From NCBI RefSeq assembly GCF_034377285.1, contig NZ_CP139715.1, positions 62,001 through 126,000 on the forward strand: 64,000 bases of DNA, given 5' to 3'. The first letter of the stretch is position 1. Every line of letters starts with the position of its first letter. Positions 39,110-61,450 of this stretch are shown here, piece by piece. Under the pieces are notes generated by a model. That model saw only the letters and a program-made list of their open reading frames with translations. It did no database searches and was not told where the DNA came from. Made by a program: the position numbers and the translations under genes. The stretch comes from Thalassobaculum sp. OXR-137 (GTDB lineage: Bacteria > Pseudomonadota > Alphaproteobacteria > Thalassobaculales > Thalassobaculaceae).

Positions 39110-39484
39110 TCAGTCGGTGTACCAGGCGTCGGCGTACAGGCCACCGGAAACCGCGCCGAGCAGACGCATGCTGCCGCGGAAGAACGCGTAGGTCGGGGTG
39201 TGGAGCAGCGCCATGACATTGCCTTGACCCAGGGCGCCGATGCTGGACCCGGTCAGGGTGCCGTAGACCGGCAGGATCAGGCCGTCGGTCACGATGGTGG
39301 CGACGACCGCGCCGCCGACCACGCCGGCGGTGATGGCGACCGCGCGATAGGCGTCGAAGCTCGAGGCCTGCGCCGCTTCCGGGACGATCGGCTGGAGGCT
39401 CTGGGCCTGGGCGGCCTGCGCCGTAACCAGGGCCAGCCCGAGGACGATCACCAGTCCCTTCGCGAGGTTAAACAGTTTCGTCAT
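39110..39484 (-). CDS. small secreted glycine-rich protein
   Basis: The ATG at 39484 gives 124 residues. The signal peptide ends near AQA-Q (residue 28). It is followed by AITAGVVGGAVVATIV and other Gly-rich hydrophobic stretches with GxxxG-like spacing (TLTGSSIGALG). Such regions commonly form glycine zippers in membranes. It resembles the proteins at 39565 and 46246 in composition and arrangement. Function is unknown. Confidence 0.7.
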   Translation of the reverse strand: MTKLFNLAKGLVIVLGLALVTAQAAQAQSLQPIVPEAAQASSFDAYRAVAITAGVVGGAVVATIVTDGLILPVYGTLTGSSIGALGQGNVMALLHTPTYAFFRGSMRLLGAVSGGLYADAWYTD

Positions 39485-39564
39485 GGCACTTTCTCCCTGT
39501 CGGTCGCTGCTATTCAGTTCACTTTGGCCTGCACGTGAAATCGTCTGACGAGCCGACGCCTGCG

Positions 39565-39978
39565 TCAATCGCCGACCAGATACATCCCCATCAAGGCGCC
39601 GCCCACGGCGGCGGTGGCCGCCGAGATGGTATGAATGGCCAGAGGCCCCGCGACCGGTGCGATGCCCGCCGCCGCCGACCAGGCCCCGCCGAGAAGGTTG
39701 GACGCCTGCAGGCCGATGATCGGCCCCAGGGCCGCACCGCCGGTGGCGACATTGATCAGCAGGACGCCTCCGGCCGCGCCGAGAAGGGCGCCAGACGCGG
39801 TGCTGACCGTCTGCAGGCTGTCGTCGCGGGCATCGCCCAGGGACTCTACGATCGTCGGCGACGTCGTGCCGTCGATGCGAGCCGCCGGCTCGGCCTGCTG
39901 CGCAAACGCCGGGGAGGTCAGCATCCCGACCGCCGCAAGCGCCATAACCATCGTCTTAAGGAAACCCACTCGCACCAT
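39565..39978 (-). CDS. small secreted glycine-rich protein
   Basis: The ATG at 39978 gives 137 residues; a GTG three codons downstream is an alternative start. The signal peptide is VMALAAVGMLTSPAFAQQ. After it come polar residues to about 55 and then a long Gly/Ala-rich hydrophobic region, STASGALLGAAGGVLLIN and GPIIGLQASNLLGGAWSAA. It is the same length as the protein at 46246 and shares its plan: signal peptide, polar mid-section, glycine-rich tail. It is the upstream neighbour of the 39110 gene, 80 bases away. Confidence 0.65.
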   Translation of the reverse strand: MVRVGFLKTMVMALAAVGMLTSPAFAQQAEPAARIDGTTSPTIVESLGDARDDSLQTVSTASGALLGAAGGVLLINVATGGAALGPIIGLQASNLLGGAWSAAAGIAPVAGPLAIHTISAATAAVGGALMGMYLVGD

Positions 39979-40375
39979 ATCCCCCCATGGCAATCCCGTT
40001 GTCCGCCAAGACTTCGGCCGTGTCCGGATACCGGACGACGGCACCGCCTCTACCCCCCGAGTTCCGCCCGCCACGCCGTCGTATCCGAACGCCGACGTTC
40101 GGAGCTGGCCGGAACAAGGCCGCCGTTCCGGATCCTCGTAATCTCCGCCGCGACCGCGACACACCCAAGAGCAAGCAGCATACCCGCGAACGTCGTCGTC
40201 GCCGTCAGCAGAAATACCATTATGGGCCCGCAGGTCTTGAAAACACTCGGTGCGGATCCTACCGTTCACTCGCATTTGAGGCAACCTACGGCGACGATGC
40301 CGCAGTGCGATCGTTGCACAACGCGGGCCCGGTCCTATACCGTCTGCCGGCGGTTGCCCTCGACCGTCACTTCGG
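39979..40375. other. 400-base divergent gap with no gene recognised
   Basis: The region separates the divergent small secreted gene (39978, minus) from the protein at 40376 (plus). Short frames cross it on both strands, but they lack ribosome sites and family resemblance. It probably holds the promoters of both flanking genes. I see no clear hairpin or repeat. Confidence 0.5.
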
Positions 40376-40813
40376 ATGCCTGTCATGGAGCAAAGCGCCG
40401 TCGTCGAGAAGGCCATCGCGCAGTGCTCTGGCCCGTTCAGCACGCTGACCCTGTACGAAACCTATCTGTCGATCGATCGCAGCCAGTTCATCTGCGACGT
40501 GCACGAAGTGGTGTTCCGCTCCCACCCGATCCGCAAGAGCCGGATCGAACTGGCGGAGATCACGGAACTCGGGCTCACCGCCTCGATGATCCTGCCGCCG
40601 CTGTTCGTGCTACGCTTCGCCGGGTGCTCGCAACTGACCGGCTCGATCCTGCACGATGCGATCCTAGGCAACGTCCACATGCTCAGCTTTCTGGACAACC
40701 GCCCCTTCTATGAGCTTTACCGGCAGCTTGAGGGGATGATCCTCGCCCGACGACCGCCGGCCGAAAGAGCCGGCGTCACCGCCGGACGGCCGCCCTTCCG
40801 TTCCTTTCCCTGA
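40376..40813 (+). CDS. unknown small cytosolic protein
   Basis: The frame gives 145 residues from an ATG at 40376; a second ATG at 40385 with GGAT seven bases upstream is equally possible. Visible parts are AIAQCSGPFSTLTLYETYLS and RFAGCSQLTGSILHDAILG, with two Cys spaced far apart. No signal peptide or TM helix. The C-terminal 20 residues are Pro/Arg-rich. I recognise no family. It precedes the periplasmic protein and the ABC-MlaE fusion by 17 bases and is likely in the same transcript. Confidence 0.6.
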   Translation: MPVMEQSAVVEKAIAQCSGPFSTLTLYETYLSIDRSQFICDVHEVVFRSHPIRKSRIELAEITELGLTASMILPPLFVLRFAGCSQLTGSILHDAILGNVHMLSFLDNRPFYELYRQLEGMILARRPPAERAGVTAGRPPFRSFP

Positions 40814-40829
40814 GCAGCGTTCATTTCCC

Positions 40830-41942
40830 ATGTCCCTTAGCCGAGCCGCTGCCTATCTGTTCTCGCTGCTGATCGTGGCCACCTTCGCCATGAGCGGCGT
40901 CTACGCCTTCAACGGGCCGCCCTTCGGCGCCGCCGACAATACCGCGGAGTTCGAACGCCCCGACTGGGCGCGGGAAATCGACAGCCATCTCGGCTTCCCG
41001 GCCTACCGGCTGCGGGACGACGGATCGTCCGTCGCCATCGGCCGGGTCGTCATGCTGAGCCCGGACCGGCTGCGGGTCACGGTCTTCCCCGACATGCAGG
41101 TCGATCCCGTGGGCGACTCCCGCGTGCTGCTCCTGGAGACCAACGCCCGCTCCCTGCTGGCCCTCGTGCCCGACCAGGCCCGCACCCAGATCGCCAAGGA
41201 CATGGAGCAGGTGGCGCGGTCGATGCGCGACCGGTTCGTCTCGATCGTGCAGGACCCGGCATTCGACGAGGCCTATCGGGCGCGGCTTCAGGACATCGTG
41301 GTCGACGCCTACCGGACGATCCGCGCGAACCCGGCGCTGAGCGGCGCGACCGACCGCGCCATCGAGATCTACCGTCGGGAATATGCGCCTGAGCTGAGCA
41401 ACACGCTGCTTCTGGCCGCGATCCCGCGGCTGCGGGCGGCGGCCCTGGAGATGGTGACCCCGTCCTGGCAGGGCATGCTCGACCTGCTGGTGGAGGGCAA
41501 GGTCGACTACTCGCCCCTGGGCGACGCCGCGGCCGACCTGCTGCGCAACGACGCCTTCTTCGATTCCATGGTCATCCACGCCCTCGATCTCGGCCGCGAC
41601 CGCCGGTTCTGGCAGGTCGGGATCCTGCTGGCGAACGCCTATATCGACGCGATCTCCGACGACCCGCGCACCGAAGCGCTCCTGAACGACATTTCGCGCG
41701 ACCCCGCCTTCCACGCGGAGCTGCAGGTGGTGGAGCGCGAAGCGGCGGCCGCCACCACCACGATCTTCTCCAGCGTCGTCGGCCGCGGTCCGCTGATGCA
41801 GCCGGACGCCCTGGCCGTGCGGATCATCCGCTACATCCTGCTGCGCCGCCCCCGGGTGGTCGCCGTCGTGGTGCCCAAGGGAGAGACGCTGCCGTCCGCC
41901 ATCCTGGACCGCTTCACCCCCCTGACGAGAGCCGGATCGTGA
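40830..41942 (+). CDS. membrane-anchored periplasmic protein of the ABC-MlaE-like operon
   Basis: The 370-residue protein has a single N-terminal hydrophobic segment (residues 6-27) that could be an uncleaved anchor or a signal. Next is a short strand-rich part with VAIGRVVMLSPDRLRVTVFP and then PVGDSRVLLLETN. This is reminiscent of, but not convincingly, an MCE/MlaD domain. The remainder is long and helical, RTQIAKDMEQVARSM to SDDPRTEALLNDISRD. Its stop overlaps the ABC fusion start as GTGA, so it is made with it and could be its periplasmic partner. I recognise no family with confidence. Confidence 0.75.
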   Translation: MSLSRAAAYLFSLLIVATFAMSGVYAFNGPPFGAADNTAEFERPDWAREIDSHLGFPAYRLRDDGSSVAIGRVVMLSPDRLRVTVFPDMQVDPVGDSRVLLLETNARSLLALVPDQARTQIAKDMEQVARSMRDRFVSIVQDPAFDEAYRARLQDIVVDAYRTIRANPALSGATDRAIEIYRREYAPELSNTLLLAAIPRLRAAALEMVTPSWQGMLDLLVEGKVDYSPLGDAAADLLRNDAFFDSMVIHALDLGRDRRFWQVGILLANAYIDAISDDPRTEALLNDISRDPAFHAELQVVEREAAAATTTIFSSVVGRGPLMQPDALAVRIIRYILLRRPRVVAVVVPKGETLPSAILDRFTPLTRAGS

Positions 41943-43519
41943 CCGTAGCCTCCACCGCCCATCACGCGCCGATCCTGTCGGTCGCGTCGCTCTCCATCGC
42001 CCAGCCGGCCGGCCGCGTGCTGCTCAGCGACGTGGATCTCACGCTCAATGCCGGGGAGATCGTGCTGTTGGCGGGTCCCAGCGGCACCGGCAAGTCGACC
42101 CTGATCAACATGCTCTCCGGCGCCATCGACCCGCGCGAGGAAGGCTGGCAGGCATCGGGCGAGATCCGCTACGGCAACCAGGTCTACGATCTCGCCAGCG
42201 ACCGGGTGGCGATCGGCGGCGTCGTCTTCCAGAACTTCGCCCTGTTCGACGACCTGTCCGTCGCCGACAACCTGGCGATCGCCCGCGACCACAGCGATGC
42301 CATCAGTCCGACTCTGAGCGCCGCCATCGACCGGCTGATCGAGGATATCGACCGCCGGCAACCGGTGGCCTCGGCCAGCGGCGGCCAGCGCCAGCGCGTG
42401 GCTATCGCCCGAACCCTGCTGGGCAACCACCCGGTGCTGTTCCTGGACGAACCGAACTCCGGGCTCGACGTGTCGTCCTCGCGCCAGCTCGCCGGCATGT
42501 TGCGGGCGCTGGTCGACGAGATCGACATTCCGATCGTCATCATCGCCCACCATTTCCGCCATCTGATCGACGTAGCCGACCGGGCGGTGGTGCTGGATTC
42601 CAACGCCCACGCCCTGGTCGAAGTCGCCGTGGAGACGAACGCCATCGAGGCGGCGCTGACGGCGGTCGAGAACGGCGAGGCGCCGACCGCCCATGCGGTC
42701 CCCGCCCCGCCCGTGGCGACGGACACGCGGGATCTCGCCGAGGGCGGACCGCTGCCGGATGCGACCGCGCGCTGGGAACTGGGCTGGGGGGTGCGCTTCT
42801 TCCTGCGCTACATCTGGGAACTCTGCTTCTCGCCCTCGGCCCTGCTGTTCGTCGGCCTGGGCTGCACCATCGTCGGCTTCGTGACGACCTGGTTCGTCTT
42901 CATGTACCTGCCGTTCCGCGACTATCTGCTGCCGGTGATCCATTCCGACGCCCTGGCCGGCCTCGCGTTCAGCGAGTTGCGGGTGCTGGCGCCGCTGATG
43001 GCGGCGGTGCTGATCAGCGTGCGCAACTCCTCGCTGATCACCGCGAGCATCGGCCACAAGGTCTATTCCGACCAGATCAAGGCGATGCGGAACCTGAACG
43101 TGCCGCACCGGCTTTACATCAACACCATGGTGATGGCGGCCTCGGGCGTGGCGGCGGTCTTCCTGGCGGCGGCGGCGGTCAGCCTGACCGCCTGGGTGGC
43201 GATGATGACCTGGGCCCATATCTTCCCCGACGGCTCCACCTACATGTGGCGCGACCAGTTCCTGCAGCGCCTGTGGCCGCCCGGCGTATCGTTCCTGGTC
43301 GGCTGGGACTGGATCCTCGCCAAGACGGTCCCGTCGATCGTCGGCGCGTCGGCAATCGCGCTGTATTTCGGCTACCGGCCGAAACACGACGTGCTCGACA
43401 TCAACAAGGCCATCGCCCAGTCGCTGATCTGGGGTCTGTCCTTCGTCCTGAGCTGGCAATCGGTTCTCACGCTGATCGAGTTCAAGCAGGTGTCGGCGCG
43501 ACTGGAAGCGACGTTCTGA
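41939..43519 (+). CDS. ABC ATPase fused to MlaE-type lipid permease
   Basis: A GTG at 41939 overlaps the upstream stop and gives 526 residues. Residues 1-240 form an ABC ATPase: Walker A GPSGTGKS (46-53), Q-loop FQN (98-100), signature ASGGQRQR (146-153), Walker B VLFLDE (166-171) and H-loop His204/205. After a 30-residue linker, residues 280-515 form a membrane domain of about five TM helices with the MlaE-like core APLMAAVLISVRNSSLITAS then SDQIKAMRNLNVPHRLYIN. The terminal block AKTVPSIVGASAIALYFGYR also matches MlaE. MlaF and MlaE are normally separate proteins. This fusion suggests an exporter or importer of lipids across the inner membrane; direction and substrate are unknown. Confidence 0.87.
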   Translation: MTVASTAHHAPILSVASLSIAQPAGRVLLSDVDLTLNAGEIVLLAGPSGTGKSTLINMLSGAIDPREEGWQASGEIRYGNQVYDLASDRVAIGGVVFQNFALFDDLSVADNLAIARDHSDAISPTLSAAIDRLIEDIDRRQPVASASGGQRQRVAIARTLLGNHPVLFLDEPNSGLDVSSSRQLAGMLRALVDEIDIPIVIIAHHFRHLIDVADRAVVLDSNAHALVEVAVETNAIEAALTAVENGEAPTAHAVPAPPVATDTRDLAEGGPLPDATARWELGWGVRFFLRYIWELCFSPSALLFVGLGCTIVGFVTTWFVFMYLPFRDYLLPVIHSDALAGLAFSELRVLAPLMAAVLISVRNSSLITASIGHKVYSDQIKAMRNLNVPHRLYINTMVMAASGVAAVFLAAAAVSLTAWVAMMTWAHIFPDGSTYMWRDQFLQRLWPPGVSFLVGWDWILAKTVPSIVGASAIALYFGYRPKHDVLDINKAIAQSLIWGLSFVLSWQSVLTLIEFKQVSARLEATF

Positions 43520-43594
43520 GGGGGCGGGCGGTGCGATGACGAAGCTCCGCTGGATTTTCGCGCCCGCCCGCGCCCTAATGCGCCGTAAAATCGA

Positions 43595-44506
43595 ATGGGA
43601 TCCGGGGTGATGCAGCAGTTCCTCGACTATATCGGCAGCTTTCGCAGCGGCCGGCGCTTCATTGCGCTGGAAGAGGAGCGCGCCCTGCTGAACATGGCCA
43701 CCTCCAATCTCGGCCTGGGGCTCGACGACGCGATGGCGGCACTGCTGATCGGTGCGCGGCAGGCAGGCCTGGTCCTGGAAAGCGAGGTTGCCGAGGAAAC
43801 CGCCGCCTTCCTGGCCGGTCGGATCAAGCAGGCCGGAAAGATCGTCAAGGCGGACTTCCAGGCGGCGACCGATTTCTTCATGGCCCGCGCCGGCAACCTG
43901 ATCACCCCGACCGAGGCGGCCCGTCGGGTGCGCCAGCTCGTCAACCGGTCCGGCTGGACCCCGGCGCGCGCCGGCTGGATCTGGCCCGACACCTCCTGGT
44001 TCGACCGCATTCCCGATCCGACGCCGAGCACCCGCGCGCTGGTTCCGCCGATGCCGGTCCCGATGGCGACCGGCGGGTCCAACGGCCAGCAGGAGGCTGG
44101 CGGCGGCAACGCCGGCGACGTCCTGCGAGACTGGGCCGCAGCGCTGCAGTCGCGCAACGTGGACCGGATCATCGCCCTCTACACCGCCGACGCCCTGCTG
44201 CTGGCGACGGCAGAGGATCAGCCCCTGATCGGACCGCCGCAGATCCGCACCTATTTCAACCGTCTGACGTCCTACGAGGGGCTGAGCGTCCGGTTTCAGC
44301 AGGAACTCCAGCGCCTGTCCTCGGACCGGGCGACGCTGGTCAGCGGGCTGTACACCTTCACCTGGCTGGATCCGCAGACCGGCAGTCCCGTGGTCACGCC
44401 GGCGCGCTACAGCTTCGCGGTGCGCGCCGTCTCCGGGCCCGGCCGGATCGCCATGCACCATTCCTCGCGCGTCCCCGGCAACTACCCGGGCGCTGCGGCG
44501 ATCTAG
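43595..44506 (+). CDS. two-domain protein: undescribed 120-residue domain plus SnoaL/NTF2-like domain
   Basis: The protein has 303 residues from the first ATG; an ATG at 43610 overlaps the stop of a 24-codon frame (43536-43610) and could be the true start. Residues 22-140 read FIALEEERALL... to WFDRIP and match the 46851 protein almost block by block. Residues 174-295 resemble a DUF4440/SnoaL-like or CaMKII-association fold, with VLRDWAAALQSRNVDRIIAL then LIGPPQIRTYF. The linker is Pro/Gly-rich. No TM segment. It lies 75 bases after the ABC-MlaE fusion and is probably part of its transcript. Confidence 0.8.
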   Translation: MGSGVMQQFLDYIGSFRSGRRFIALEEERALLNMATSNLGLGLDDAMAALLIGARQAGLVLESEVAEETAAFLAGRIKQAGKIVKADFQAATDFFMARAGNLITPTEAARRVRQLVNRSGWTPARAGWIWPDTSWFDRIPDPTPSTRALVPPMPVPMATGGSNGQQEAGGGNAGDVLRDWAAALQSRNVDRIIALYTADALLLATAEDQPLIGPPQIRTYFNRLTSYEGLSVRFQQELQRLSSDRATLVSGLYTFTWLDPQTGSPVVTPARYSFAVRAVSGPGRIAMHHSSRVPGNYPGAAAI

Positions 44507-44535
44507 AACATAGGTCAGAGGGCAGAGGCGGTCGC

Positions 44536-44553
44536 GGGCCGGAGGACCGGCCC
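44536..44553. terminator. short hairpin between converging genes
   Basis: GGGCCGG and CCGGCCC pair across a four-base loop in the 58-base gap between the converging genes at 44506 and 44565. It could serve both transcripts. It lacks a T-run. Confidence 0.45.
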
Positions 44554-44564
44554 TACAAGACCGG

Positions 44565-44990
44565 TCAGGTCTGGCGGCCTTCCTCGACGATCTTCACGCC
44601 GCCGATCCGCGAATGGATATGGGCGTAGCAGAGCCCGGCACCCATGATCAGCACGACCGTGGCCTGCATGGCGTTGATCAGGTCGGTCCGGCTGTCGATC
44701 GTCACCCAATCCTTGTCGATGGCGAACCAGGCGCCGGCGGACATGGCGATCGAGACCAGCAGCAGGCCTGTCCGCTGCAGGGCGACCGCGCCGGTCTCGG
44801 TGATGTTGTAATAGGCGAAGCCCAGCACGCCGAAACAGGCGACCTTCAGGATGACGTCCTGATCCGGGTAGTCGACCACCCAGTGGTAATAGGAATAGCC
44901 GCTGGTGTTGTAGGTCGCGAACACGATGAAGGCCGGATAGAGCAGCCGAGCCAGGATGCCGCCGGGGCCGAGAATGAAGTGTCCGTCCAT
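44565..44990 (-). CDS. small four-helix membrane protein (DUF6524-like)
   Basis: The 141-residue protein has four hydrophobic segments, including LLYPAFIVFATYNTSGYSYY, VLGFAYYNITETGAVAL and NAMQATVVLIMGAGLCYAHI. The Tyr-rich first loop and the length resemble the DUF6524 family of uncharacterised proteobacterial membrane proteins; I assign this cautiously. It converges with the shared-domain protein gene and has no close partner on its strand. Function is unknown. Confidence 0.72.
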   Translation of the reverse strand: MDGHFILGPGGILARLLYPAFIVFATYNTSGYSYYHWVVDYPDQDVILKVACFGVLGFAYYNITETGAVALQRTGLLLVSIAMSAGAWFAIDKDWVTIDSRTDLINAMQATVVLIMGAGLCYAHIHSRIGGVKIVEEGRQT

Positions 44991-45088
44991 GCCATCCGTC
45001 CGCCGCGTTTCGTTCCGTCGCCGGGCCTTCGAGCCGATCCGTCATCCTACGAACGCGCGGGGCATCAGGCAAGCGGGCAGGCGTCGCC

Positions 45089-46090
45089 TCAACAGGCGGG
45101 AGCGACCGTGACTTCCCGGCAGAACGCTGCGTCCATCCGAGCCTGCGCTTCGGCGATGGTCCGGTCGCGCTGCTCGGCGATGACCCGGCGCAGCTCGGCC
45201 TCGAAGACCGGCCGGTTCATGGCGCTGTCGGCCCAATTGATCAGGTAGTCGGTCCCCCAGAGGCCGGCGGCGATCGCGCCGGAGACGAGCGACACCCCGA
45301 CCAAGCCCCCCGTGTCCACCGCCGACATGAGCGCCGCGCCGCCGGCCATGGGGACGACGACCGGGACGATCACCAGACGCGTGGCGGCGCTCAGCAGGCG
45401 GATCGAGAGCGGCCGCACGGCCCGGCCCAGCACCAGGTCTGCCTGGGCCGGATCGACCGTCCCGTCGTGCAGCACGGCCTGCGGTCCCCGCGTCAGCCGG
45501 TCCGGCGCCCCCGGATACCAGTCGACCAGCAGCGGCCGGGCATAGGCGGCGGGAGCGCCCCGGGCCGCCCGGTCGGCTGCCAGGGAGCGGTCGAGCCGGG
45601 CGAGCTGGTCGACGGCGTCCTGCCAGGCCTCGAAAAGCTCATGCTCGGTCGTCTCGGGCTTGATCACTTGTTCTTCGAAGGCGGCGCCGACATAGGCCTC
45701 CAGATCGCGGACGATCTCGCCGCTGTCGATCGCCTCGCCGCGCCAGAGCTGGCCGCCGACGCTCTGCGCGCCGACCCCGGCCAGCCGCGCGCTCACCGAG
45801 AGGCTCGACAGCCAGCCGTACACCCACTCGCTGTATTCCGGCACCCGATCGGCGACCTCGTCGTAGGGCCGGCTCAGCCGCGCCTCCACCAGAGCCCCGG
45901 CCGCGCGGCGCAGGATCAGGGCGTCATCCCTGACCCAGGCCTCGGCCCGCTTTGCGGAAACATCGAGGATTTGGGCGGCTTGTGTCCTAGTTTGCTGCGC
46001 ATTTCCCGGCGCAGCCCCTGCAGTCAGCGCAATACACAGGACTGCGCCCCACACTTTATGCATTAGTAGGCTGGCGAAAATGCGATACAT
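45089..46090 (-). CDS. exported protein with C-terminal membrane-like segments
   Basis: I place the start at the ATG at 46090 (333 residues); an ATG at 46063 and a TTG at 46099 are alternatives. A signal peptide is visible, with VWGAVLCIALTAGAAP then GNAQ-Q. The mid-part is helical and charged. At about residues 230-290 there are two Gly-rich hydrophobic stretches, TRLVIVPVVVPMAGGAALMS and VGVSLVSGAIAAGLWGTDYL. Both could be membrane hairpins like those in the small glycine-rich proteins. Cys residues near the C-terminus (FCREVTVAPAC) are 10 positions apart and could form a disulfide. No family recognised. Confidence 0.72.
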   Translation of the reverse strand: MYRIFASLLMHKVWGAVLCIALTAGAAPGNAQQTRTQAAQILDVSAKRAEAWVRDDALILRRAAGALVEARLSRPYDEVADRVPEYSEWVYGWLSSLSVSARLAGVGAQSVGGQLWRGEAIDSGEIVRDLEAYVGAAFEEQVIKPETTEHELFEAWQDAVDQLARLDRSLAADRAARGAPAAYARPLLVDWYPGAPDRLTRGPQAVLHDGTVDPAQADLVLGRAVRPLSIRLLSAATRLVIVPVVVPMAGGAALMSAVDTGGLVGVSLVSGAIAAGLWGTDYLINWADSAMNRPVFEAELRRVIAEQRDRTIAEAQARMDAAFCREVTVAPAC

Positions 46091-46245
46091 AAGACCCAAT
46101 CTGACGACCCTCTTCCTGGTGTGCTGCGACGAGAAATCAAAGGTCTGTGGCCATAAACGGGATGACGGTGGAGCAGCCTTCGGTCATTATGTGTGCTGAT
46201 ACGCACGACGTCACGTATCGACGAAAAAGAACGGGAGTACTAGGC

Positions 46246-46659
46246 ATGAAAGCGTTCGCTTTCTTACTGATTTCAGCCGGAGTCCTGATTGGCTCGATGT
46301 CCGTGGCGTCGGCTCAACAGGTGACGACTGCGCCCTCGACCGAAGCGGTCGGCGGTTCCGTCCTGACGCCGGAGCAGATCGAGAACCTCAACGCCATGGT
46401 CGACCGCATGCAGTCCAGCATGAACGACATGGTTGAAGCGGCCCGGGAAACGGCGCTTCAGATCGGGCAGGGTTCCAAGACCGTGGTTCTGACCACCAAC
46501 GACCTCGCGGCCATTGCGATCGGCTCGGTCGGCGCGGCGCTGTTGGTGGACATGCTGGGCGGTGGCGGCATGGCGACCCTGGCGGGTGCCGTGGCCGGCG
46601 GCGTCGGCGCCCACTGGCTGATGACCCGCGACGGTCCGCTGTTCGAGAGCCCGCTGTAA
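46246..46659 (+). CDS. small secreted glycine-rich protein
   Basis: The ATG at 46246 is preceded by GGGAG and gives 137 residues, the same as the 39565 protein. The signal peptide is MKAFAFLLISAGVLIG then a cut near ASA-Q. A helical segment (LTPEQIENLNAMVDRMQSSM) leads to a Gly-rich hydrophobic tail, LAAIAIGSVGAALLVDMLGG and TLAGAVAGGVGAHWLM, with several G-x3-G spacings. It is divergent from the exported protein gene at 46090. Confidence 0.72.
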   Translation: MKAFAFLLISAGVLIGSMSVASAQQVTTAPSTEAVGGSVLTPEQIENLNAMVDRMQSSMNDMVEAARETALQIGQGSKTVVLTTNDLAAIAIGSVGAALLVDMLGGGGMATLAGAVAGGVGAHWLMTRDGPLFESPL

Positions 46660-46676
46660 GGCCCATCTGCCCCCGG

Positions 46677-46704
46677 GCGTCCGGCAGGTCAGCCTCCCGG
46701 ACGC
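46677..46704 (+). terminator. hairpin after the small secreted gene
   Basis: GCGTCCGG and CCGGACGC form an 8-bp stem with a 12-base loop, 18 bases after the stop of the 46246 gene. A T-run is absent. Confidence 0.45.
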
Positions 46705-46751
46705 ATCGGACCGAGCGGTTACAGGCGTTTCCCTAGGCGGGGCCTTCCGGT

Positions 46752-46792
46752 TCGTCGGCGGCGGAATCGTATTCCGATTGCACCGCCGACGA
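46752..46792. promoter_or_regulatory. 41-base nested palindrome before the Mic60-like operon
   Basis: TCGTCGGCGG (46752-46761) pairs with CCGCCGACGA (46783-46792), and an inner pair CGGAAT / ATTCCG is nested between. It lies 59 bases before the ATG of the shared-domain gene at 46851. It could end the previous transcript or act as an operator or leader structure. Confidence 0.5.
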
Positions 46793-46850
46793 TTAGCGTT
46801 GATAAAATGCGCCGGATTTCAAGGAATTGCAGAGTAGGCAGCGTAAGTCG

Positions 46851-47297
46851 ATGGTGTCAGATCCAGAGTCACGGCGGCGGTTTGCCGACATGGTCCGCAT
46901 CGAGGGGATGAACGGCGGTTTCATCCGGGCGGAAGACGAGCGTCGCTTGCTGCAGGACGGCATGACGCGGTTCAACCTCTCCCTCGACGAGGCCAACGGC
47001 GCCATGCTGGCGACCGTCAACGACCAGAAACTGGTGCTGCAGCGGGTGGCCGACGAAGGCACCCGTGAGTTTCTCAACGTCCAGGCCAGCCGGAACCGGC
47101 AGCGCAAGCTGTCCCGGAAAGACTTTAAACAGGCGGTCGAGATGTATCGGGCCAAGGCCCGGCAGCGGGTCTCCGAGGAAGAGGCCAAGCGACGCGTGAA
47201 GTGTCTGATGCTGGAGGAGGGGATCACCGCCAAGCGGGACGGATGGATCATCCGCACGCGGCGCTGGTTCAATTCGATACCGGAGCAGATTGCGTAG
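46851..47297 (+). CDS. stand-alone copy of the undescribed 120-residue domain
   Basis: The ATG at 46851 gives 148 residues; an in-frame TTG at 46827 is less likely. Residues 24-143 (FIRAEDERRLLQDGM to WFNSIP) match residues 22-140 of the protein at 43595, with shared blocks E-[DE]-E-R-x-L-L, L-x-L-D-[DE]-A and a terminal W-F-x-x-I-P. It is highly charged, mostly helical and without TM segments, and may be a cytosolic adaptor. The Mic60-like gene follows 41 bases downstream on the same strand. Confidence 0.8.
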   Translation: MVSDPESRRRFADMVRIEGMNGGFIRAEDERRLLQDGMTRFNLSLDEANGAMLATVNDQKLVLQRVADEGTREFLNVQASRNRQRKLSRKDFKQAVEMYRAKARQRVSEEEAKRRVKCLMLEEGITAKRDGWIIRTRRWFNSIPEQIA

Positions 47298-47338
47298 GCA
47301 CGAGGGACCAGAACGGCCCGAAACCCGAGGATACTAGA

Positions 47339-48841
47339 ATGGCGAACCGACCACGGCTGCCCAACGTGGATCCAGAAGATCTCGCAAAGCTCGCGAGCCA
47401 GTATCCGGGCAGCCGGACGGCCGACGGATCGGGGGCGAGCGACAAGCCGTCCTCCGCCACCGCCGCGTCGTCTTCCGCCACCAAGGACGCGTCCGGTCCG
47501 GCCCTTTCCGCGTCCTCCTCCGCCCGGACGGGGACCGCGTCGACCAGCGCGCCGGCAGGCTCCGGGTCGGGCAAGCCTGCCAAGCCCGCCAAGAAGGGCG
47601 GAAGCTGGTCCGCGGCCTTCCTGACATTCGTGTTCGCGCTGATCGCCGTGGCGGCCGCCATCGCCGCCATCGGGGCGCCGAGCTATCGCGGCGAAATCCA
47701 TGCGCTGCTGACCAAATACGGCAAGCCGCATCTCAACGACGACGCCATCGACATCCTGTCCGGCTACGACACGCAGCGCCTGGAGGTGACCTATGAAGGT
47801 CTCGATCAGCGCATCGAGGCGCTGAATCAGGCGCTCGCGCGGGTCGCCGCCGCCCAGGGCGTGTCCGGCGACGACGTGCGGGCGTTGCTGCTGCGCGACG
47901 AGTTGTCGGAGAAGCTCGACGGTCTGGTCACCCGGGTCGACGCCATCGCCCAGACGAACGACAGCCAGGCCGAGCGCCTCGCCGCTCTCGACACCGACAT
48001 GACCGCGGTGACCGATACCCTGCGCGGAGAGCTTCGCGCGTCCGCCGACGAGATCCGCGGCGCCATCGCCGCGGTGCAGGAGTCGGTCGATGCCACCCGC
48101 ACCGACCTCGGCGCTCTGGCCGACCGGCAGACGACCGCCGAAGGACGCTCGGAAGAGCTGGCCGCCGCGACCGTCGAGTTGGACGGCCGCCTGGAGACGC
48201 TCAACGGTCGTCTCGGTTCCCTGATCACCGACTTCAAAAGCCTGCTCGACCTGAACGACCAGCTCGCCCAGACCGTGGCGACCTTCAAGCAGGAGAACAT
48301 GCCGGTCCTCGCCGTGATCCAACTCCGCGACGCGGTGATGCGGTCCGAGCCCTACCTGCCGGAACTGGCCTTTGCCAAGCGGGTGCTGAACGGCGCTCCG
48401 GGGATCCAGCCGGCCCTGGAGAAGCTGACCCGTCAGGCGCAGAACGGAATCGAGTCGATCCCCGATCTCCGCCGCGACCTGCGGCTGATCGTCAACAACC
48501 TGGGGATGTTCGTCTCCAAGCCGAATTCCTGGCCCGATCGGGTCGGCACCTGGTTCAACATGCTGGTCGGCACCACCACCGTGCCGGAAGCGCGCCAAGG
48601 CGGCGGTCTGGTGGCGACGCTCGCCACCATGGACGAAGCCCTGGATCGCGACGATCTGGAGCTGGTCATCCGCGAAGGTGCGGGCCTCCAGTCGGAGATC
48701 CGGTCGACGGCCCTGGCCGACTGGCTGAGCGCCGTGGTCGAAAGGGTCGAGGCGACCGACGCGGTCCGTCAGCTCGAGACCATCGTCTACGACCGGTCGA
48801 TGGTGAAGCAGGCCAGCCAGGGGGCGAGCAAGGTCCAGTAG
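47339..48841 (+). CDS. Mic60/mitofilin-like membrane protein A
   Basis: The ATG at 47339 follows GAGG and gives 500 residues. A Ser/Ala/Thr/Pro-rich cytosolic tail (1-88) precedes one TM helix at 91-113. A long helical coiled-coil region follows to about 305, and then a C-terminal domain with AVIQLRDAVMRSEPYLPELA and ALDRDDLELVIREGAG. This layout and the LRDA...PY..EL pattern match the COG4223/Mic60 group of alphaproteobacteria, homologues of the mitochondrial crista-junction protein. Mic60 in this class usually sits beside heme-synthesis genes. This is not that context, so it is probably an extra paralogue. Confidence 0.8.
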   Translation: MANRPRLPNVDPEDLAKLASQYPGSRTADGSGASDKPSSATAASSSATKDASGPALSASSSARTGTASTSAPAGSGSGKPAKPAKKGGSWSAAFLTFVFALIAVAAAIAAIGAPSYRGEIHALLTKYGKPHLNDDAIDILSGYDTQRLEVTYEGLDQRIEALNQALARVAAAQGVSGDDVRALLLRDELSEKLDGLVTRVDAIAQTNDSQAERLAALDTDMTAVTDTLRGELRASADEIRGAIAAVQESVDATRTDLGALADRQTTAEGRSEELAAATVELDGRLETLNGRLGSLITDFKSLLDLNDQLAQTVATFKQENMPVLAVIQLRDAVMRSEPYLPELAFAKRVLNGAPGIQPALEKLTRQAQNGIESIPDLRRDLRLIVNNLGMFVSKPNSWPDRVGTWFNMLVGTTTVPEARQGGGLVATLATMDEALDRDDLELVIREGAGLQSEIRSTALADWLSAVVERVEATDAVRQLETIVYDRSMVKQASQGASKVQ

Positions 48842-48860
48842 GGCCGGCGTCGATCCTCCG

Positions 48861-49475
48861 GTGGAACCAGCAGAACTTTTCTCGATCCTCGGCGCCCGGC
48901 TCGTCGGAGGCATCGTGCTGGTCGTCCTGCCGCTGCTCGGCTATGTCGTGGCGAACCTGATCTGGCACGTCCAGCCGCTGGTGTTCTTCCATCGCATCCC
49001 GCTGCTGTCGAAACTGGCCATGATCACCGGCCTGCTGCTCGGGATCGGCGTCATCGCCGCCAGCCCGCACCGTCCCTCCTTCGACATCAATGCGATCGTC
49101 GCCAGCGGCGGGGCGTGGGACGTGACGTGGCGCCAGTTCCTCACCGACATCGCCGATCCCGGCCTGTACGGGTACGAGGCCCTGTGGCGCATGTTGAGCG
49201 TCCGGGACCTGTCGGGTCTGTGGATGCTCTACGGCATTGCGGTGAGTGGTGCGCTGATCGCCAGCGCGATCGCCACGCTCGTCGTCCTGCGCGGCGAAGA
49301 GTTCCTGATCGGCGTCTTCGCGATGACCTATGAAGTTCTCGTGATGCAGGCCCTGGCCATATACGTGATCACGCTCCTCGCCTATACGCTGTGCACCTTC
49401 AACTTCTGGACCGCCCTGATCGCCCTGATCGTCCTGCAATATTACAGATATGTGAGACATCCGGCGGGGCACTAG
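48861..49475 (+). CDS. polytopic membrane protein of unknown function
   Basis: A GTG at 48861, 19 bases after the Mic60-like stop, gives 204 residues. There are about five hydrophobic segments, for example GGIVLVVLPLLGYVVANLIW, LSKLAMITGLLLGIGVIAAS and VLVMQALAIYVITLLAYTLC. The loops are short and the first is cytosolic or periplasmic depending on charge. I recognise no family. Its position between two Mic60-like genes suggests a common membrane complex. Confidence 0.7.
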   Translation: MEPAELFSILGARLVGGIVLVVLPLLGYVVANLIWHVQPLVFFHRIPLLSKLAMITGLLLGIGVIAASPHRPSFDINAIVASGGAWDVTWRQFLTDIADPGLYGYEALWRMLSVRDLSGLWMLYGIAVSGALIASAIATLVVLRGEEFLIGVFAMTYEVLVMQALAIYVITLLAYTLCTFNFWTALIALIVLQYYRYVRHPAGH

Positions 49476-49580
49476 TACTGGCCGACTTTCCGCGTCGGAA
49501 AGCAGGAGCGGCCGATACATTTCAAATCCCCTGTAGTATAGTTTGGGGAAAGTAAGGCTCACCTAAAAGGGGTAAAGGCT

Positions 49581-50786
49581 GTGACGGACGAGGATACCGG
49601 CAAAACTGCCAAAACGACGAAGCGCAAAACCGCGTCGACAGGGACCCGGGCGCCCTCGAAGCCGCGCAGCAAGACAGCCGCTTCTACGCCGGCCGCCACG
49701 ACGGCGGGCGCGAAGGCAGCCGCTGCGCCCGCTCCGTCGGTCTCCGACAAGCCGACGCCGGAGCCGGTTGCGGCGACCAGCCCCAACCCGTCGGCAACAA
49801 CGGTGACGGAAACCACCGCGGCGACCGCCGCCCCGACCTCCCCCGCCCCGGCTTCCCCCACCCCGGCCGCCGCAGCCTCGTCCGGTTCCGGATCGGGCAG
49901 CGCGAGCACGGGTGGCTCCGGGTCGGGCGGTTCCGGGTCGGGCGGCTCGGGATCGGGCGGCGGCTACACCCGTATCCCGGCACCGCAGCCGAGCGCGTCC
50001 AGCGGCTCCGGTCTGGTCAGCCTGCCGATCATTCTCAGCATCGCCGCCATCGTCATCGCCATCCTGATCCCCGTCCTCAAGGATCGCGCCGGCGGGCCGA
50101 CGGTGAAGGTGGCAGACGTCGACGCCCTGAAGGTCCAGCAGACCGAGCTGCTGACCGCCGTCGCCAATCTGCAGTCCAGCATCGAAGCGCTCGGGGTCGA
50201 GCAGGACACCATGCGCGCCTCCATCGAGGCGGTTAAGGTGCCGTCGATCATGATCGCCGCCACCGACCTGGAGGAGACGATCAAGGCCGGCGACCCGTTC
50301 GAGGAGGATCTGGCGCTGTTCCGCGCGATCGTCGGCGAGAACGAGACGGTCGCCTCCGTCTATGCGCTCGAGCCGCTGGCTGCCGACGGCGTGCCGACGA
50401 AGCGCGAGCTGCAGGCCGGGTTCGGCGACGTGTCCCACGCCATCGTGGCCGCCTATCAGACCGTCGATTCCGAAGGCGATCTCGCCAAGCGGGTGTCGGA
50501 GACCATGGCCAACCTGACCGCGGCCACCACGCGTCTGCGCTGGCGCCTGGACGGTACGACCACGCCGGAAGGCACCGATCCGCTGGCGATCATGGCCCGG
50601 GCGGAGAAGGCGGCCGAGGACGCCGACTTCAACGCGGTGATTTTGGAGCTGGAAGCCCTGCCGGACAACCTGAAGGCGATGACCACCGACTGGGTCATGC
50701 AGGTCGAGGCCCAGCAGAAGGCTCAGACCGCGATCGAGGATCTTGAGCTGTTCATGATCGAAACGGTGGCCCGCACCCGGAAATAA
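49581..50786 (+). CDS. Mic60/mitofilin-like membrane protein B
   Basis: A GTG at 49581 follows AAAAGGGGTAAAGG and gives 401 residues. A long disordered N-tail of Lys/Thr/Pro/Ser and Gly-Ser runs (1-145) precedes one TM helix at 146-166. After a short coil (180-215), the C-terminal part shows AATDLEETIKAGDPFEEDLA and EPLAADGVPTKRELQAGFGD. The spacing and residues (L..AI..G.PF..EL and L..A..G.P....L) match the mitofilin signature of COG4223 proteins. It is shorter than protein A but has the same plan, so the two are probably paralogues. Confidence 0.8.
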   Translation: MTDEDTGKTAKTTKRKTASTGTRAPSKPRSKTAASTPAATTAGAKAAAAPAPSVSDKPTPEPVAATSPNPSATTVTETTAATAAPTSPAPASPTPAAAASSGSGSGSASTGGSGSGGSGSGGSGSGGGYTRIPAPQPSASSGSGLVSLPIILSIAAIVIAILIPVLKDRAGGPTVKVADVDALKVQQTELLTAVANLQSSIEALGVEQDTMRASIEAVKVPSIMIAATDLEETIKAGDPFEEDLALFRAIVGENETVASVYALEPLAADGVPTKRELQAGFGDVSHAIVAAYQTVDSEGDLAKRVSETMANLTAATTRLRWRLDGTTTPEGTDPLAIMARAEKAAEDADFNAVILELEALPDNLKAMTTDWVMQVEAQQKAQTAIEDLELFMIETVARTRK

Positions 50787-50854
50787 TCCGGGAGGAAATA
50801 AGCCGGGCGCCGCCCGGAAACAGATGAGGGGATCGGCGATGCCGGTCCCCTTCT

Positions 50855-51505
50855 CTATTCAGCGAACAGGACGGGTTCGATCTCGCGGGCGAGATTGCGG
50901 ATCTCCAGGGTCGCCCGGTTCTTCGGCGCCAGGCTCAGGGGCGAGGCGCCGTGATAGGACGCCTCCTGGAAGATCACCCGGTCGCCGATCCGCGACTTCA
51001 GCGGATTGAGACCGAGCTGCTCCAGATTGCGCTCGGTGTGGCGCACCACGGTCGTCATCTTCTTCACCCGGTTCAGGACCGAATGGAACGGGATCTCGCG
51101 CCGGGTCAGCTTGCTGGCGCTGCTGATGACCTGCTTCATCTTCGCCGCCTCGAACAGGCTGGCCTCGTCGGGCATCACCGGGATCAGGACCATGTCGGCC
51201 ACGCCGACCGCATAGACCATCGCCTGGTTGCCGAAGCCGGCAGTGTCGACCACGACCACGTCGGCCTCCTCGCCCAGGGCGTAGACCGACTCGATGATCT
51301 CGTGCTCGTTGGCGTTGGCCGAGACCGAGATGCCCTTGAACCCGGACTCGCTCTTGCGGGCCCATCGGGCCATGGCCTCGTTCGGGTCGGTGTCGAGAAT
51401 CGCGACAGCCTTGCCCTGGTCCCGCCAGTAGGAGGCAAGTGCTGCGCTGATGGTCGTCTTACCGGTTCCACCCTTGCTGGTGGCGATAACGAGAATACTG
51501 GCCAT
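50855..51505 (-). CDS. MinD/ParA-type ATPase
   Basis: The start is placed at the ATG at 51505 (216 residues); the upstream ATG adds four residues. The deviant Walker A is IATSKGGTGKTTISAALAS. LDTDPNEAMARWARKS follows, and the second switch reads VVVVDTAGFGNQAMVYAVG. It lacks an obvious membrane-targeting amphipathic tail, and its C-terminus is ordinary. ParA-type ATPases position cargo on the nucleoid; those beside envelope operons can position protein complexes. It converges with the Mic60-like gene B and is divergent from the exported protein at 51633. Confidence 0.9.
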   Translation of the reverse strand: MASILVIATSKGGTGKTTISAALASYWRDQGKAVAILDTDPNEAMARWARKSESGFKGISVSANANEHEIIESVYALGEEADVVVVDTAGFGNQAMVYAVGVADMVLIPVMPDEASLFEAAKMKQVISSASKLTRREIPFHSVLNRVKKMTTVVRHTERNLEQLGLNPLKSRIGDRVIFQEASYHGASPLSLAPKNRATLEIRNLAREIEPVLFAE

Positions 51506-51632
51506 GGCGGACAACATCTTGTGCAGTGATCGGGCAATGATGACCTACCGCCCTCACAAGCGATACCATGATGTTGCCGACCGACCGGTTTTCCGCTTTA
51601 GTTTGAAAAATTTCTGATTGGGCGGATCGCGA

Positions 51633-52226
51633 ATGGACCACTTCCCTGCCTCTTCCAGCCGCAGAATTCTGCGGAGCGGTGCGTCGGTCGTGATCCTCGC
51701 GGCGGCGCTCGCCATCGTTCAACCGTCCGTGGCGCGCGCAGGCGTGGTCGGCAGCGCGCTGGAGACGATGGCAGGCTGGGTTTCGGGAATCGAGTCGGCC
51801 ATCGCCACCTGGTTCGACAGCACGATCGGACGGATCGAGCTGCCGGATCGCGGCAAGAGCGCCGCGCGCACCGTCGCGGAGATGGCCTTCGACAATCCGG
51901 CGGGCCTCGCCGCCGTCGCCGAGCGGGCCGGCTTCCGGCTGACGTCGATCAGCTTCACCGAGGACGGCAAGCAGGTCGACGGGATTTCATTCGCCTACGA
52001 ACGGGCGATCGAGAAGGATGAGCGGCTGGCCCTCTGGCGCGACGTGCTGGAAGTGGAGGCGACCCCCTTCCGTCCGGAAATGGAGCTGGTGCGGCTGCTG
52101 CTCAACGCGTCCGACATGCAGGACAACCGGCCGCCGGCGGGCATGACCATGACCGGTGTGACGATCACGATCGACAGGGATGCGCTCGAGGCGTCCTGGA
52201 CCTTCGTCCCGAACCCCGCCGGCTAA
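51633..52226 (+). CDS. exported protein of unknown function
   Basis: The ATG at 51633 gives 197 residues. A signal peptide is clear: basic RRILRSG, hydrophobic ASVVILAAALAIVQPSV, and a likely cut at ARA-G. The mature part is alpha/beta with a helix AGLAAVAERAGFRL and the paired strands SISFTEDGKQVDGISFAYER. I recognise no family. It converges with the DUF4239 gene across a 9-base gap. Confidence 0.75.
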   Translation: MDHFPASSSRRILRSGASVVILAAALAIVQPSVARAGVVGSALETMAGWVSGIESAIATWFDSTIGRIELPDRGKSAARTVAEMAFDNPAGLAAVAERAGFRLTSISFTEDGKQVDGISFAYERAIEKDERLALWRDVLEVEATPFRPEMELVRLLLNASDMQDNRPPAGMTMTGVTITIDRDALEASWTFVPNPAG

Positions 52227-52235
52227 TCCTGCCCG

Positions 52236-53027
52236 TCAGCGTATGACGTTCAGGAAGGCCGTCGGGCTGATCGACGCCTCGCCGATGAACGGATAACTGA
52301 GCTGCAGCACCATCAGCAGGTGCAGCATCAGGAAGGACGTGAGCAGCGCCGACATCACGGTCTGCGAGACCACGTTCACCGTACCGAAGAACCACGGGAA
52401 GATGATCGCCATCAGCGTGCCGCTGATGAGCACGGCCCAGACCAGCGCGATCAGGGACCGCGACACCGTCGTGAGCCGCAGCGACCTGTACTCATTGATC
52501 TGGTTCACCCACTCGACCGTGTTCTGCTGCAGCGACTTCTGGGCTTCTGTGACCGGTTCGACCCGCATGAACACGGTGTTCATGTCGGCCAATCGGGAGG
52601 AAACGTCCGGATCGGCGATGCCGTAGCTCATCACCCGCCATTCCTTCTCGACCACCGCGCGCGCGTATTCCTGCACGGCCCGGCGCATCGCCGCGCGGTC
52701 CACCTCCTGCCCCGGCTGGTCGTAGGTATCGGCAGCCCAGGACAGGGACGACAGGGTCGCCGCTTCCCGCTGGGCGTTGGTCTGGGCCGTGGTGAAATGG
52801 TCGAAGGCCCCGATCATCGCCAGGCCCAGGGTGACCGCATAAACCTCGCCCAGGAAGCCGAACTTGGCCCCGCCGACGGAGTTGTTCGGCTCCAGCTCGA
52901 ACGGCGTGAACACGGAGTTCACCAGCCAGGATCCGATGATCGACAGCAGGATGCCCAACGCGATCATGAAGGGCACCGACGTGCTCAACGGAATGGCGGC
53001 CAGTTGAAGACCGAGATCGTATGTCAT
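52236..53027 (-). CDS. DUF4239/bestrophin-like membrane protein
   Basis: The 263-residue protein has two N-terminal TM segments (around FMIALGILLSIIGSWLVN and GFLGEVYAVTLGLAMIGAF). A cytosolic helical stretch follows with EAATLSSLSWAADTY, and two C-terminal TM segments complete the pattern. This four-TM layout with a central conserved AQ..A..E..AL/TL motif matches the DUF4239 family, which is distantly related to bestrophin channels. Function is unknown. A hairpin precedes the start. Confidence 0.83.
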   Translation of the reverse strand: MTYDLGLQLAAIPLSTSVPFMIALGILLSIIGSWLVNSVFTPFELEPNNSVGGAKFGFLGEVYAVTLGLAMIGAFDHFTTAQTNAQREAATLSSLSWAADTYDQPGQEVDRAAMRRAVQEYARAVVEKEWRVMSYGIADPDVSSRLADMNTVFMRVEPVTEAQKSLQQNTVEWVNQINEYRSLRLTTVSRSLIALVWAVLISGTLMAIIFPWFFGTVNVVSQTVMSALLTSFLMLHLLMVLQLSYPFIGEASISPTAFLNVIR

Positions 53028-54598: not shown

Positions 54599-55054
54599 AT
54601 GGCGGACACCGGCGTGCCGACCAAACCCACCCTGCGGATCATCGCCGCCAACCGGAGCGAGGAGCTCGATCGGATCGCCGGCGAGCTCGGCCGGTTCGCC
54701 GAGGAGAACGACCTGCCCATGCGCAGCGCCATGCACCTCGACATGTCGGTTGAGGAGATCGTCTCCAACGTTATCAAATACGGCTTCGATGCCGGCGACA
54801 TCCGCGACGATGCGGTGTCCATCGACCTGACGCTGGAGGACGACCGGCTGGCCATCCGCATCGCCGATAGCGGTCGCCCCTTCGATCCGCTGGCCGATGC
54901 GCCGCTCCCGGATATCGACGCCAGCGTGGAGGACCGGCCGATCGGCGGTCTCGGCGTCCACATCGTGAAGACGGTGATGGCCGAGGTACGCTATACCCGC
55001 GCCGGCGACCGCAACATTCTCGACATGATCCTGGCGATCGCCGCGCCGGCGTGA
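54599..55054 (+). CDS. RsbW-like anti-sigma factor kinase (HATPase fold)
   Basis: The 151-residue protein has the GHKL/HATPase motifs in compact form: N-box MSVEEIVSNVIKYGF, G1 IADSGRPFDP and G2 IGGLGVHIVK. This matches the RsbW/SpoIIAB kinases that bind and inhibit a sigma factor or another regulator and phosphorylate their STAS antagonist. The downstream STAS gene overlaps the stop. No sigma factor or PP2C phosphatase lies nearby. Confidence 0.87.
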   Translation: MADTGVPTKPTLRIIAANRSEELDRIAGELGRFAEENDLPMRSAMHLDMSVEEIVSNVIKYGFDAGDIRDDAVSIDLTLEDDRLAIRIADSGRPFDPLADAPLPDIDASVEDRPIGGLGVHIVKTVMAEVRYTRAGDRNILDMILAIAAPA

Positions 55055-58600: not shown

Positions 58601-58606
58601 GGACGC

Positions 58607-60036: not shown

Positions 60037-60088
60037 GGTGAACGGTCACCTCAAGGGTAGACAGATATCTCGAACGCGCGAGCCGATG

Positions 60089-61450
<1,362 letters not shown>

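Follow-up and report, generated by a model that had tools for sequence, protein, structure and literature searches.

Do the sixteen genes that lie between positions 39110 and 53027 of the window form one system, and what might such a system do? The window is the 64,000-nucleotide stretch of DNA analysed here, bases 62001–126000 of a 5.46-Mb contig of Thalassobaculum sp. OXR-137. Its genes g2 to g17 (Table 1) were called from lists of open reading frames, codon use, Pfam and cross-genome comparison. An initial annotation, made from the letters alone, read the locus as one that shapes or tethers membranes and moves lipids between them. We find that the genes very probably form one conserved set. 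Prominent in it are a one-chain ABC ATPase and MlaE-type permease (g6), a membrane-anchored periplasmic partner (g5) and two relatives (g12 and g14) of Mic60, which gives mitochondrial membranes their shape. We propose, with a probability of roughly 0.6, that the set encodes an envelope-spanning machine for Mla-like phospholipid transport between membranes, built differently from Mla.

Conservation of the gene set

The window's order is represented by 36 genomes of one family. The permease, g5 and g13 were each searched separately in them at E 1e-5, and all three were found in the same nine genomes; the other 27, several of them incomplete, gave no match at this threshold. Among the genomes at least 90% complete, carriers number 8 of 20. 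The co-occurrence has a Fisher p of 1e-8, shared ancestry being ignored. Across five genera, the locus keeps its gene order even where protein identity falls to about 30%, and g2–g16 lie on one contig in six of the nine carriers. Neither g2 nor g3 was found in G009 and G010, where contigs end inside the cluster. In G014, the set is on two contigs, and the break falls at the g7/g8 boundary, away from contig ends; G029 has an insertion of about 5.4 kb at this same boundary. Because both events fall there, the cluster may consist of two sub-modules, g2–g7 and g8–g17. The Mic60-like gene g12 is present in the fetched regions of all nine carriers and g14 in eight; the G010 contig stops short of g14, with a weak Mitofilin match on a different contig.

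Outside the order, the set recurs in rearranged form. A permease-profile scan of named genomes gave 25 loci in Thalassobaculum, Azospirillum, Roseospira, Rhodospira, Skermanella and metagenome-assembled genomes (MAGs), and the permease is present in 17 of 82 Azospirillaceae genomes. Fifteen Azospirillum loci extend past the permease, and in 12 of these the next gene is Mic60-like. Eight of the 15 have g11, g13, two DUF6524 genes, g5, the permease and the Mic60-like gene in a row, g13 lying beside g11. Four have only g5, the permease and the Mic60-like gene with an MlaA gene (L068, L070, L075, L188), and in three of them (L068, L075, L188) these are four consecutive genes, the shortest Azospirillum version. 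Two further loci (L185, L186) have g5 and the permease only, and L187 is arranged differently. The Skermanella version has a quite different order, with MlaA, two DUF6524 genes, g4, g13, a Mic60-like gene, the TPR gene, the shared domain of g7 and g11, DUF4239, g9, g5 and the permease. A cluster of about 18.5 kb in the marine MAG G429 (on the contig of L071) contains three Mic60-like genes, the shared domain, MlaA, two DUF6524 genes, g13, ParA, g4, g5 and the permease, with some other genes interspersed. In G461, one short contig carries MlaA, g4, ParA, a Mic60-like gene and the permease, and a second carries DUF6524, Mic60-like, g9, g13, DUF4239 and g11. G071 also has a rearranged version. 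In Azospirillum cavernae, MlaA, two DUF6524 genes, TPR, g13 and g11 form a second locus (L202, G086:C1) on a contig other than that of the permease; the set can therefore be split over two places. In relatives, the genes thus tend to occur together, though the coupling is not absolute, the permease, g5 and g13 sharing their nine genomes and a Mic60-like gene adjoining the permease in most Azospirillum loci. The view of the initial annotation that the genes act together is supported by this conserved set and by its reshuffled versions in other families.

A class-wide sample of 385 genomes, taken as the same set for the permease and the shared-domain scans since their tallies agree, gives the same picture. 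The shared domain is present in nine genomes, including the window's own, and the permease strongly in seven, with both in six (Fisher p 1.3e-10). Without the window's genus, five permease and seven domain carriers remain, four with both (p 2e-7). Five of the 12 permease-profile matches in the class (E 2e-7 to 8e-6) probably represent ordinary MlaE genes and were not counted; a single-sequence permease search of the class matched 5 of 289 genomes, with G090 very weak among these. In 72,556 plasmid records, the sole permease match and the sole g11 match by tblastn sit on a single Azospirillum plasmid, separated by about 3.6 kb. The named-genome permease scan and these plasmid records are the searches that reached beyond Alphaproteobacteria. 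As a control, 36 other window genes were compared with 32 distant loci, and eight had any match, one being the TPR gene. In the same scan, by plain tblastn, DUF6524 was found in 16 of the 32 loci and g5 in 9; these two counts are free of the circularity that affects those of the permease and g11, by which the loci were chosen. The 25 named-genome loci and further Azospirillaceae regions were scanned with hidden Markov models (HMMs) built from the window's order alone. Other models were widened with distant members, so that the E-values of those members (in the scans of G216, G461, G429 and G102 and in the presence table) are inflated.

The permease and its partner, the Mic60 relatives and MlaA

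The joining of a fused ATPase and permease to a periplasmic protein, as first read from the sequence, is confirmed: ABC_tran (93.2 bits) and MlaE (PF02405, 51.4 bits, cut-off 22.5) match one chain, and g5 lies directly upstream with a 4-base overlap. The ATPase motifs GPSGTGKST, SGGQ and LFLDEP can be read in g6. The permease half aligns with MlaE over an EQxDA-like segment (hhalign 54%, E 1.3e-4, against only two ordinary MlaE sequences). The ATPase is 31–32% identical to those encoded next to the two ordinary MlaE genes of the genome. In every multi-gene version with an upstream flank available, g5 directly precedes the permease; in G461 and G314, the contig ends before the g5 position.

The g5 alignment comprises 22 sequences. 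Its AlphaFold2 model, with a predicted local distance difference test score (pLDDT) of 81.6, has a membrane helix at residues 3–28, a β region at 38–103 and then mostly helices. In place and outline g5 is like MlaD: an anchor, a β part and helices. Neither sequence nor fold searches gave a confident PDB match. A Foldseek match to a chain of MlaFEDB (rank 18, E 0.42, probability 0.09) was judged to be chance, and the idea that g5 is an MCE protein recognisable from its sequence was rejected on an hhalign value of 0.1% against MCE. We infer that g5 may be a replacement for MlaD.

Fused ABC-MlaE permeases without a g5 match also occur singly in Roseospira and Rhodospira (L076, L078, L079, L080). 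A LysR regulator adjoins them, as identified by Pfam for L079 and L080 and by sequence likeness for the others. The Rhodospira MAG carries both a solitary permease and the multi-gene form. In the G030 MAG (L049), the permease, g13 and ParA are each split over two frames, by assembly error or decay.

Two Mic60-like proteins had been noted on either side of a polytopic protein, and profile comparison agrees: hhalign gives 99.5% for g12 and 99.1% for g14, and g13 lies between them. Both profiles align with the order's ordinary Mic60 proteins, including the C-terminal part. Pfam Mitofilin rises above its cut-off for the g14 orthologues in G029, G014, G030 and G025. G429 has three Mic60-like proteins, and one of them also exceeds it (31.1 bits). 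Pfam gives no Mitofilin match for g12. A hydrophobic stretch is found at residues 93–111 of g12 and 145–163 of g14, and matches to coiled-coil models suggest a coiled coil in g12. The window genome also has an ordinary Mic60 elsewhere (G000:C1:1192829). In a tree of the C-terminal part, 19 ordinary Mic60 proteins lie on one side of a branch (81/83), and g12 (99/98) and g14 (100/99) are two separate families. Given these separate branches, g12 and g14 look like old, specialised and divergent relatives of Mic60; a recent duplication of the ordinary gene was rejected, with deep placements unsure owing to long branches.

A further component, seen in the loci outside the window's order, is MlaA, whose known role is the extraction of lipid from the outer membrane. 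On the Azospirillum plasmid pAB510b, the gene after the Mic60-like gene is annotated as MlaA, and Pfam agrees. Linkage of MlaA to the permease extends to three families: f52 (Azospirillaceae, 11 of 17 loci), f57 (G461) and f135 (G429). In nine loci, it is close behind the Mic60-like gene (L068, L070, L073, L075, L077, L082, L083, L184, L188); it lies about 4 kb from the permease in L187 and about 14 kb from it in Skermanella. L069 ends just after the permease, so that linkage is not judgeable there. At least two MlaA genes are present in 14 of 16 permease-carrying Azospirillum genomes versus 0 of 29 non-carriers, all of which have exactly one. In a tree, 13 linked MlaA sequences are separated from 26 unlinked ones by a 100/99 branch; the tree is unrooted with several long branches, and the unlinked set was chosen from top-scoring matches, lower-scoring copies being unrepresented. 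One of the linked sequences comes from the second A. cavernae locus, where it adjoins g11 and not the permease; another is truncated where its contig ends.

The nine order carriers all keep at least one MlaA gene and two MCE genes, and for this reason we take the system to be additional to the ordinary one. MlaA is single in seven of them, with three copies in G009 and two in G030. In the window genome, the only MlaA lies 2 Mb from the locus and the two MCE genes are outside it. A profile of 12 MCE proteins from the order (E 1e-3) found no MCE protein (MlaD) in the window or in the related loci scanned, a search that a very divergent MCE protein could escape. MlaC (PF05494) had no match at E 0.1 among 20 window proteins, covering 15 of the 16 genes of the cluster (all but g3), a search confined to the window. 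No MlaB-type STAS domain was found among the cluster proteins scanned.

The system resembles Mla (MlaFEDB, MlaC and MlaA) in pairing an MlaE-type permease with an ABC ATPase and in having a periplasmic partner, anchored in the membrane, encoded just upstream. Many Azospirillum loci, as well as Skermanella, G429 and G461, add a linked MlaA lipoprotein. In contrast to Mla, a single chain holds both ATPase and permease, the loci yielded no MCE protein, and Mic60-family proteins, a ParA ATPase and several unnamed families are added. The two nearest described variants considered here both have an MCE protein (PMC10665443, PMC12436622). The trans-envelope MlaEFD system of Veillonella parvula bridges both membranes without a soluble MlaC, as is proposed for this locus, but there the bridge is a long MCE protein, MlaD (PMC10665443), whereas here the candidates are of Mic60 type. 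Mpc of Brucella abortus is an alphaproteobacterial Mla variant thought to bridge the membranes; it contains an MCE protein, and the excerpted text mentions no Mic60-like protein (PMC12436622). The comparison with Mic60 and the mitochondrial contact site complex (MICOS) rests on the putative inner-membrane helix and the mitofilin-like C-terminus of g12 and g14. Unlike ordinary Mic60, with which they coexist in the genome, these are separate branches tied to a transporter. The small glycine-rich proteins g2, g3 and g10, which have glycine-zipper-like motifs, may recall Mic10. Full-text literature, with few subscription papers covered, yielded no paper on alphaproteobacterial Mic60 with MlaA, on DUF6524, on the evolution of alphaproteobacterial MlaE/MlaA/MCE gene clusters, or joining alphaproteobacterial Mic60, BamA and the outer membrane. 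For mitofilin in Azospirillum the one paper returned concerns EVE and DCD domains, and the papers returned for a fused or single-chain MlaE include that on Brucella Mpc.

Proposed lipid transport and the alternatives

The proposed tethering and lipid-moving role of the initial annotation gains on its lipid side from the MlaA genes linked in three families, and remains a proposal. Judged from domains and gene linkage, the set's proteins probably move lipid between membranes, and the linked permease, Mic60 relatives and MlaA suggest a new form of inter-membrane lipid bridge. In the mechanism that we propose, g6 would form a dimer that spends ATP on shifting phospholipid to or from the inner membrane, and g5 would take MlaD's position on the periplasmic side of g6. 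The Mic60-like proteins would cross the periplasm and hold the inner membrane near MlaA or another outer-membrane partner, such tethers replacing the MlaC shuttle. The polytopic g13, g8 and the small glycine-rich proteins would be membrane parts of the contact site, and the ParA-type ATPase, g7 and g11 would place or regulate the machine from the cytoplasm. In Thalassobaculum, the unlinked MlaA might serve both this and the ordinary Mla system, or another outer-membrane partner might be used. The full version of this proposal, an MCE-free lipid ABC transporter at contact sites built by Mic60 relatives, with its own MlaA and ParA-type placement, is more tentative, and we put it somewhat below even odds.

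Several observations weigh against this reading or against strict coupling of its parts. ABC proteins of this shape might not transport at all (compare FtsEX), and g5 has neither a meaningful MCE score nor a confident fold match. No MlaA was found in the available flanks of 5 of the 17 Azospirillaceae loci (L072, L074, L183, L185, L186), nor in those of the nine order carriers, where short contigs limit G009 and G010. The shared domain is present without a strong permease match in G102, G216 and G307, and G314, which lacks the domain, carries part of a permease where a contig ends. Four permeases of Roseospira and Rhodospira, including L076, stand alone, and G216 has a Mic60 module and no permease match (a model match there is, judging by the protein, an unrelated ABC-F protein). 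Since the Mic60 module of G216 lacks the permease and the Roseospira and Rhodospira permeases are alone, the parts of the system are not obligate partners. The Fisher values, moreover, ignore shared ancestry.

If the genes do not move lipid, they might form a membrane-shaping or positioning machine. FtsEX is a mechanical switch for cell-wall enzymes, and the fused ABC-permease would similarly be a switch, its ATP turnover driving changes of conformation that pass through g5 to the Mic60-like tethers. The Mic60 module without a permease in G216 is consistent with this, a ParA-type ATPase suggests positioning, and the FtsE model is one of many that match the ATPase half of g6, though at 100.5 bits it is far under its cut-off of 264.85. 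In alphaproteobacteria, intracytoplasmic membranes depend in part on Mic60 proteins, which have membrane-bending activity (PMC12136173). Against a switch, however, are the linkage in three families of MlaA, a lipid-extracting protein, and the permease half of g6, which is above the Pfam MlaE cut-off; we consider this alternative unlikely. Less probable again is the export or import of a special lipid or hydrophobic compound rather than bulk phospholipid, such as a hopanoid or an aromatic compound bound by the SnoaL-like domain of g7. That domain falls just under the Pfam cut-off. The patchy distribution, in 9 of 36 order genomes and 17 of 82 Azospirillaceae, would fit a special cargo, as would a system additional to the MlaA and two MCE genes that all nine order carriers keep. 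But the set that recurs between families includes no biosynthetic gene family, and outside the window's order the SnoaL part is seen only in the Rhodospira MAG L064, other versions having a short protein that consists of the shared domain by itself. A chance neighbourhood of unrelated envelope genes, kept by descent only, is very improbable and was rejected: all carriers seen are alphaproteobacteria, within the searches described, and the statistics are uncorrected for ancestry, but gene order is conserved, content is kept while order is reshuffled in several families, and only eight of the 36 control genes, the TPR gene among them, matched in the 32 distant loci.

Should the full, MCE-free version be real, the mitochondrial link between MICOS and lipid traffic would have a bacterial parallel, which would suggest that the coupling of membrane contact and lipid transfer is older than mitochondria or came about independently in their bacterial relatives. 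The ancestral core of MlaE-type transporters (MlaEFD) is described as including an MCE protein (PMC10665443). A conserved set that has an MlaE-type permease and often MlaA, but in which no MCE protein can be detected, would depart from that picture. The Mic60-family proteins of alphaproteobacteria would gain a concrete genetic partner, and several unnamed protein families would be joined in one testable system, of which the shortest Azospirillum version has four genes.

Gene content of the locus and its surroundings

Table 1. Genes of the locus and the associated TPR gene, with positions in the window.
Gene	Product	Position	Strand	Basis or occurrence
TPR	TPR protein, 387 aa	34503..35666	-	Pfam TPR; outside the interval of the initial annotation
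g2	Small secreted glycine-rich protein	39110..39484	-	In 7/9 order carriers, not G009, G010
g3	Small secreted glycine-rich protein	39568..39978	-	Adjoins g2 in the same 7/9 carriers
g4	145 aa, family unknown	40376..40813	+	HMM: L065 2e-18, L071 9e-12, Skermanella 4e-14
g5	Membrane-anchored periplasmic permease partner, no known family	40830..41942	+	One predicted N-terminal helix
g6	One-chain ABC ATPase and MlaE-type permease, 526 aa	41939..43519	+	Pfam
g7	Shared domain and SnoaL-like domain	43595..44506	+	SnoaL_2 E 1.2e-5, 26.2 bits (cut-off 27)
g8	DUF6524 membrane protein	44565..44990	-	PF20134, 113 bits
g9	336 aa, secreted or membrane, family unknown	45089..46099	-	Skermanella 1e-7
g10	Small secreted glycine-rich protein	46246..46659	+	Related to g3
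g11	Shared all-helical domain alone	46827..47297	+	hhalign with g7; AlphaFold2
g12	Mic60-like protein A	47339..48841	+	hhalign to ordinary Mic60 99.5%, E 4.5e-22
g13	Polytopic membrane protein, family unknown	48861..49475	+	About 5 hydrophobic stretches
g14	Mic60-like protein B	49581..50786	+	hhalign 99.1%; Pfam Mitofilin 24.9 bits (cut-off 27.4)
g15	ParA/MinD-type ATPase	50855..51517	-	Pfam CbiA/AAA_31
g16	Secreted protein, family unknown	51633..52226	+	In 7/9 order carriers; weak G314 match, 8e-4
g17	DUF4239/Bestrophin-like membrane protein	52236..53027	-	PF14023, 155.7 bits

The domain that had been seen in two proteins and left unnamed is indeed common to g7 and g11 (hhalign 99.8%, E 5e-30), and no Pfam match at E 0.1 covers it. 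The AlphaFold2 model of g11 (pLDDT 87.7) is a compact helical fold with no confident PDB match, either in a sequence search or in a fold search with the model. Pfam likewise agrees with the early calls of a MinD/ParA ATPase and a DUF4239 protein, PF14023 now being named Bestrophin-like by Pfam. The three glycine-rich proteins had been described as similar; this holds for g3 and g10 (hhalign 90%, E 1.6e-6), whereas g2 is not clearly similar to them (18%, 20%). The genes g4, g8 (DUF6524), g9 and g16 are additions to the initial list. Apart from g6, g7, g8, g12, g14, g15 and g17, no gene of the locus could be placed convincingly in a known family. Scans of the locus for promoters and terminators gave nothing informative, and the NCBIfam scan matched only ABC and coiled-coil models.

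Several of these families accompany the system elsewhere. The presence table has 37 rows, 25 of them with DUF6524 (g8). With widened models, g4 matches in G216 (2e-28) and G461 (4e-27), and g9 matches in the same two genomes. A protein 44.6% identical to g15 adjoins the permease in G314, and the g15 family lies near Mic60-like and permease genes in G429 and G461. The g17 family recurs in Skermanella and, with a widened model, also in G461 and G102. The TPR protein recurs in the Azospirillum and Skermanella versions; with an HMM trained on the order, the family adjoins the system in L074 (7e-66), L183 (6e-64), L190 (6e-53), and L081 and L189 (1e-34).

Other genes stand nearby in some lineages. 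Proteins of the PBP_like_2 (phosphate-binding) type lie beside the system in Skermanella (L189:9274-10353) and G461 (L222:3377-4513), and a Na/Pi cotransporter is near it in G429 (L206:16192-17829). A small G461 protein has a weak C19orf12-like match (19.4 bits versus a cut-off of 30), which was not used. In the window, 54599–55428 encodes a HATPase_c_2 protein and then a STAS protein, a pair resembling an anti-sigma factor with its antagonist. A few kb from the locus, at 55437–61180 on the minus strand, genes for a RodA/FtsW-type protein, a PBP2-type transpeptidase, MreD, MreC and MreB lie in a row.

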